A DNA stretch of 33,939 bases. Origin: Pyrinomonadaceae bacterium (GTDB taxonomy: Bacteria > Acidobacteriota > Blastocatellia > Pyrinomonadales > Pyrinomonadaceae). A program made the position numbers and the translations under genes. Each line of letters opens with the position of its first letter. Position 1 is the stretch's first letter. This document shows, piece after piece, positions 33,353 to 33,939 of this stretch. The notes under the pieces were generated by a model. The model searched no databases. It was not told the origin of the DNA and saw only the letters and a program-made list of their open reading frames with translations. The DNA lies in the NCBI GenBank assembly GCA_030372865.1, contig JAUCQE010000648.1:1-33939 (forward strand), read 5' to 3'.

Positions 33353-33885
33353 ATGAAGGCGTTAACACGAACTGCCTCGATCTTGCTTGCGGGATTCCTT
33401 TTACTCGCTCAAATCACAGGTTTCGGAACCGGGTCACATTTCGATGTGGCCCGTACGGTTTTAAAAGAGCACGGCTTCAGCGAAGACGCGATAAAGATGA
33501 TCCAGGTGAGTAACTGGCTTACGGATTACTACGCGACTAGCCCGACGCGGAGCGACGAGCACCGGGCCGATCTGGAAAAGCTCCATTTCGATAATCTCTA
33601 CTCTGAGGAGCAGGTGCTGGACTACTGGTCCTTGCTGCTTCGCAATCTCCGCAATTCTACCGAGTCTGCTGCAAAAAAGGATGACGTTTTCCGAATGCTG
33701 CTCGTGATCGGCATCGGGTTACACGCCGTGCAGGATTTCTATGCCCATTCGAATTGGGCCGAACTACACCCCCGCGGAAAGGACGGCTATTATCGTTCCG
33801 ACACCATCATCAAGGCTCTGGCGACCACGCCGGTGCCATCGCTGAAAGGCCTGAAAACCGGGAAGTATCCGGATGACCGGGTAAC
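33353..33885 (+). CDS. secreted HET-C / zinc-dependent phospholipase C-like protein, 3' truncated
   Basis: Signal peptide; SHFDVARTVLKEHGFSEDAIKMIQVSNWLTDYY and GIGLHAVQDFYAHSNWAEL (HET-C-like). Native sequence ends at the adapter junction. Confidence 0.65.
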
Positions 33886-33939
33886 CTGTCTCTTATACAC
33901 ATCTGACGCTGCCGACGAGTTCCGAACGGTGTAGATCTC
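33886..33939 (+). other. Nextera/Illumina adapter sequence (not genomic)
   Basis: CTGTCTCTTATACACATCT + GACGCTGCCGACGA + about 10-nt index-like GTTCCGAACG + GTGTAGATCTC. Confidence 0.98.

Follow-up and report, generated by a model that had tools for sequence, protein, structure and literature searches.

Untrimmed Nextera adapter at the end of a Pyrinomonadaceae contig provides the tail and stop codon of a truncated Het-C/VWA7_N-like ORF

The last 54 bases (33886-33939) of the window, by which we mean the whole stretch of 33,939 nt analysed here, are virtually beyond doubt untrimmed adapter read-through from a Nextera (Tn5 tagmentation) library, and the tail and stop codon of the final ORF are adapter-encoded. 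We observed the identity of the adapter, a single index pair across the assembly, a position at the contig end and a loss of homology at the junction, and found no evidence against adapter read-through.

Composition of the terminal stretch

The window spans the whole of contig C648, one of 718 in an assembly that totals 3.80 Mb, with a completeness of 96% and a contamination of 5.9%. Its terminal 54 nt read, in sequence, CTGTCTCTTATACACATCT GACGCTGCCGACGA GTTCCGAACG GTGTAGATCTC, such that a 19-bp mosaic end is followed by the Read-1 tail GACGCTGCCGACGA, then by the index and directly by P5. Set against the Nextera i5-side construct (P5 + N10 + Tn5ME-A) in reverse complement, these 54 nt agree at all 44 fixed positions, which bears out the proposal of an earlier note on this DNA that the contig ends in a mosaic end plus read-through adapter, an index-like 10-mer and the start of the i5-side primer. 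The 33-mer CTGTCTCTTATACACATCTGACGCTGCCGACGA at 33886-33918 has no mismatches and occurs once in the window, with an expected number of copies of 0 in 100 dinucleotide-preserving shuffles of the window (three or fewer mismatches); no adapter was found at the 5' end of the window with up to three mismatches allowed. The parts of the stretch and of the ORF that runs into it are as follows.

33353..33885, + strand: authentic 5' portion of a truncated gene, 177 whole codons (Pfam PF25107 and PF07217; relatives)
33886..33904, + strand: Tn5 19-bp mosaic end (Tn5MErev, CTGTCTCTTATACACATCT), artefact; exact, unique in the window, 0 expected; oligo in PMC7402673
33887..33934, + strand: artefactual C-terminal codons CLLYTSDAADEFRTV plus stop (codon table over the junction)
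33905..33918, + strand: Nextera Read-1 (Tn5ME-A) tail, reverse complement, GACGCTGCCGACGA, artefact; exact match
33919..33928, + strand: 10-nt i5 index GTTCCGAACG (i5 oligo CGTTCGGAAC), artefact; identical in 21/21 assembly places
33929..33939, + strand: reverse-complemented P5, first 11 nt, GTGTAGATCTC, artefact; 11/11 match

Adapter copies across the same assembly

The assembly to which the window belongs contains 271 copies of the mosaic end with two or fewer mismatches, 257 of them exact, against 1 and 0 for reversed-pattern controls. Indices can be read only where read-through was long enough to reach them, and at every such place they are the same: the i5 index is GTTCCGAACG at 21 of 21 places and the i7 index is AGCGCTGTGT at 16 of 16. 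The presence of one i5 and one i7 index across unrelated contigs indicates a single dual-indexed library. Distances to contig ends and upstream contexts were taken from 40 sampled junctions out of the 271 copies; the 25-mers upstream were distinct in all 40, and 38 of the 40 copies lay no more than 58 nt from a contig end. A search of 119 genomes from this family found the mosaic end in two, the present genome and one other, and it is absent from all other searched members of the same genus; its distribution therefore does not follow descent.

The two internal copies in the sample (in contigs C132 and C251) both appear to be chimeric joins that the adapter created. In C132 (3882-4380) the internal adapter is followed by 439 nt encoding part of elongation factor G (TIGR00484, 2.6e-55), with a GC content of 69% after the adapter and 58.5% before it, and contig C440 of the same assembly holds another EF-G-like match with 74% identity; C132 has the appearance of a chimera bridged by the adapter, to which two organisms may have contributed. 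In C251 (1-158) the adapter breaks off within the i7 index, where it meets 117 nt of a different coding sequence that weakly resembles ArgJ (E 0.0013), and this looks like a second chimeric join.

A truncated Het-C/VWA7_N-like ORF with a false tail

The ORF at 33353-33934 is present as described previously; it is a secreted Het-C/VWA7_N-like gene that has been cut short and whose tail and stop are encoded by the adapter. Its N terminus carries a signal-peptide-like segment, and it matches PF25107 (VWA7_N; 4.3e-08, 33.3 bits versus a cut-off of 27.5) and PF07217 (Het-C; 6.2e-07, 28.8 bits versus a cut-off of 21). Both matches reach the gathering score with each profile covered only in part, and both run through the GIGLHAVQDFYAHSNW region of the ORF; NCBIfam and PDB searches returned nothing for it. 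Relatives in this bacterial family have lengths of 490, 498 and 523 aa and share 47-53% identity with the ORF, and a further relative copy is cut off by its own contig end. The ORF is thus not full-length, having 177 genuine residues versus the 490-523 of its relatives. Of 98 other genomes of the bacterial family, only 4 gave a strong match to this Het-C/VWA7_N-like protein family, none of them from the genus of the window, and the full-length relatives have a second conserved region toward the C terminus, with a weak C2 match in one of them.

The alignment to relatives holds through TGKYPDDR (R176), with the junction codon lying two codons further on; past R176 the relatives continue with a conserved HGDY...NHDS...RPxWxEAYVFAY that is absent from the window ORF. 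Genomic sequence supplies the whole of codon 177 (GTA) and the first two bases of the junction codon 178 (ACC, T178, 33884-33886). The third base of codon 178 is adapter, and residues 179-193 (CLLYTSDAADEFRTV) are wholly adapter- and index-derived, forming a false tail of 15 residues. That homology stops before the junction codon agrees with the earlier claim that this ORF ends in adapter-encoded residues. The stop codon TAG at 33932-33934 sits in the P5 stretch, and the truncated ORF therefore falsely looks complete. When the final 300 genomic bases were searched against the assembly, none of its other contigs overlapped this end, so the true continuation past 33885 is not readable from the genome's own assembly.

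Occurrence in other sequence collections

Exact copies of the 33-mer are present in at least 118 GTDB species-genome stretches and at least 120 IMG/VR stretches, and 235 of 244 copies among the GTDB and IMG/VR matches listed are at most 60 nt away from where a stretch ends. Some of these copies are followed by a poly-G or poly-A tail, as read-through gives. No copy was found in complete E. coli genomes, so the 33-mer is not a natural sequence that enterobacteria commonly carry. In two isolate-assembly loci (L022 and L078) a long poly-G follows the adapter, as dark cycles of two-colour chemistry would give, and in one isolate-assembly ORF the poly-G after the adapter is translated as a glycine run. 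A contig of another genome (G048:C109, near 2371) has a mosaic end adjoining an NN scaffold gap inside the scaffold, and a further scaffold (locus L128, near 2154) has one beside an NN gap; mosaic ends at such gaps are contaminated contig ends joined through scaffolding.

ORFs run into the i5-side adapter in all three of its frames, which give CLLYTSDAAD(E), VSYTHLTLPT and LSLIHI*, and among ORFs of at least 100 aa that enter the adapter in the fetched loci these peptides occur 36, 37 and 27 times respectively. The 33-mer was also found in 26 phage records and eight plasmid records, the latter from Klebsiella and Enterococcus and with several copies far from record ends. In GenBank and RefSeq phage records the adapter lies inside annotated coding sequences, including those for a terminase large subunit, a tail fibre and hypothetical proteins. 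Translated at their annotated coordinates, the terminase large subunit YP_009877169.1 carries ...LTCLLYTSDAADDPAG..., YP_009909638.1 has the C terminus ...VSYTHLTLPTICSV and QBQ77263.1 the C terminus ...TLSLIHI. The expectation that CLLYTSDAADE would spread into protein databases as a false shared motif is thus upheld as regards the spread, which is seen in annotated phage proteins, but not as regards a single motif, since CLLYTSDAADE represents one of three frames.

Discussion

The 19-bp mosaic end was derived from the ends of Tn5, and this favours reading it as the terminus of a natural or engineered Tn5-type transposon residing in the genome. The match, however, does not stop at the mosaic end but runs on into the synthetic Read-1 tail, the index and P5; there are about 270 copies in the assembly, those sampled lying mostly at contig ends and each in a different context, and all other searched members of the genus are without a mosaic end. 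A transposon end is refuted by the fixed index and P5 sequence, and we regard it as extremely improbable. The tail of the ORF could also be taken for a real conserved peptide motif, given that many unrelated proteins end in CLLYTSDAAD, a peptide that terminates 36 ORFs of at least 100 aa in the fetched loci and sits in annotated phage proteins. Yet this peptide is the adapter translated in one frame, the other two frames are about equally frequent (27 and 37 ORFs), and complete relatives of the ORF carry a different sequence at the position of the tail; frame analysis and relatives together refute a conserved peptide, leaving it a probability that is effectively nil.

Adapter read-through probably arose from a short tagmented fragment that ended at genomic base 33885, its insert being shorter than the read, so that the sequencer would have run beyond the fragment, through the mosaic end and Read-1 tail to the i5 index and P5. 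The reads would then have been left without Nextera trimming, and the assembler would have carried the untrimmed adapter into the contig end, where coverage was presumably thin. The terminal stretch of the window is an ordinary assembly artefact with nothing biologically novel, and quality control calls for ending the contig at 33885 and labelling its last ORF as partial.

The consequences extend beyond this contig. The false shared C-terminal peptides CLLYTSDAAD, VSYTHLTLPT and LSLIHI can lead motif searches, clustering and protein language models astray, and false peptides in adapter frames are already present in RefSeq phage proteins. Our literature searches returned no relevant paper for adapter-encoded peptide motifs or for the index letters. 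It is likely that Nextera read-through occurs commonly among species-representative genomes and in collections of viral contigs, that it bridges organisms as chimeras and seeds several recurring false C-terminal peptides, and that it would be missed by a screen restricted to TruSeq.

Contamination of microbial genome databases by sequencing adapters, concentrated at contig ends, has been described previously (Moeller et al., 2024; PMC11536531), with the adapter forward at 3' ends and as its reverse complement at 5' ends, in both MAGs and isolates, and with a link to broken contigs. The window resembles those cases in having adapter at a contig end, but differs in that theirs is a TruSeq adapter whereas the window carries a Nextera mosaic end with a 10-nt dual index. 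That screen used only the TruSeq universal adapter AGATCGGAAGAG, and Nextera cases such as the window therefore fall outside its count. The sequences of the Nextera/Tn5 tagmentation oligos Tn5ME-A, Tn5ME-B and Tn5MErev are printed in PMC7402673; the terminal letters of the window are the same as these adapters at every fixed position, and the sole difference in its 54 nt is the sample-specific index.
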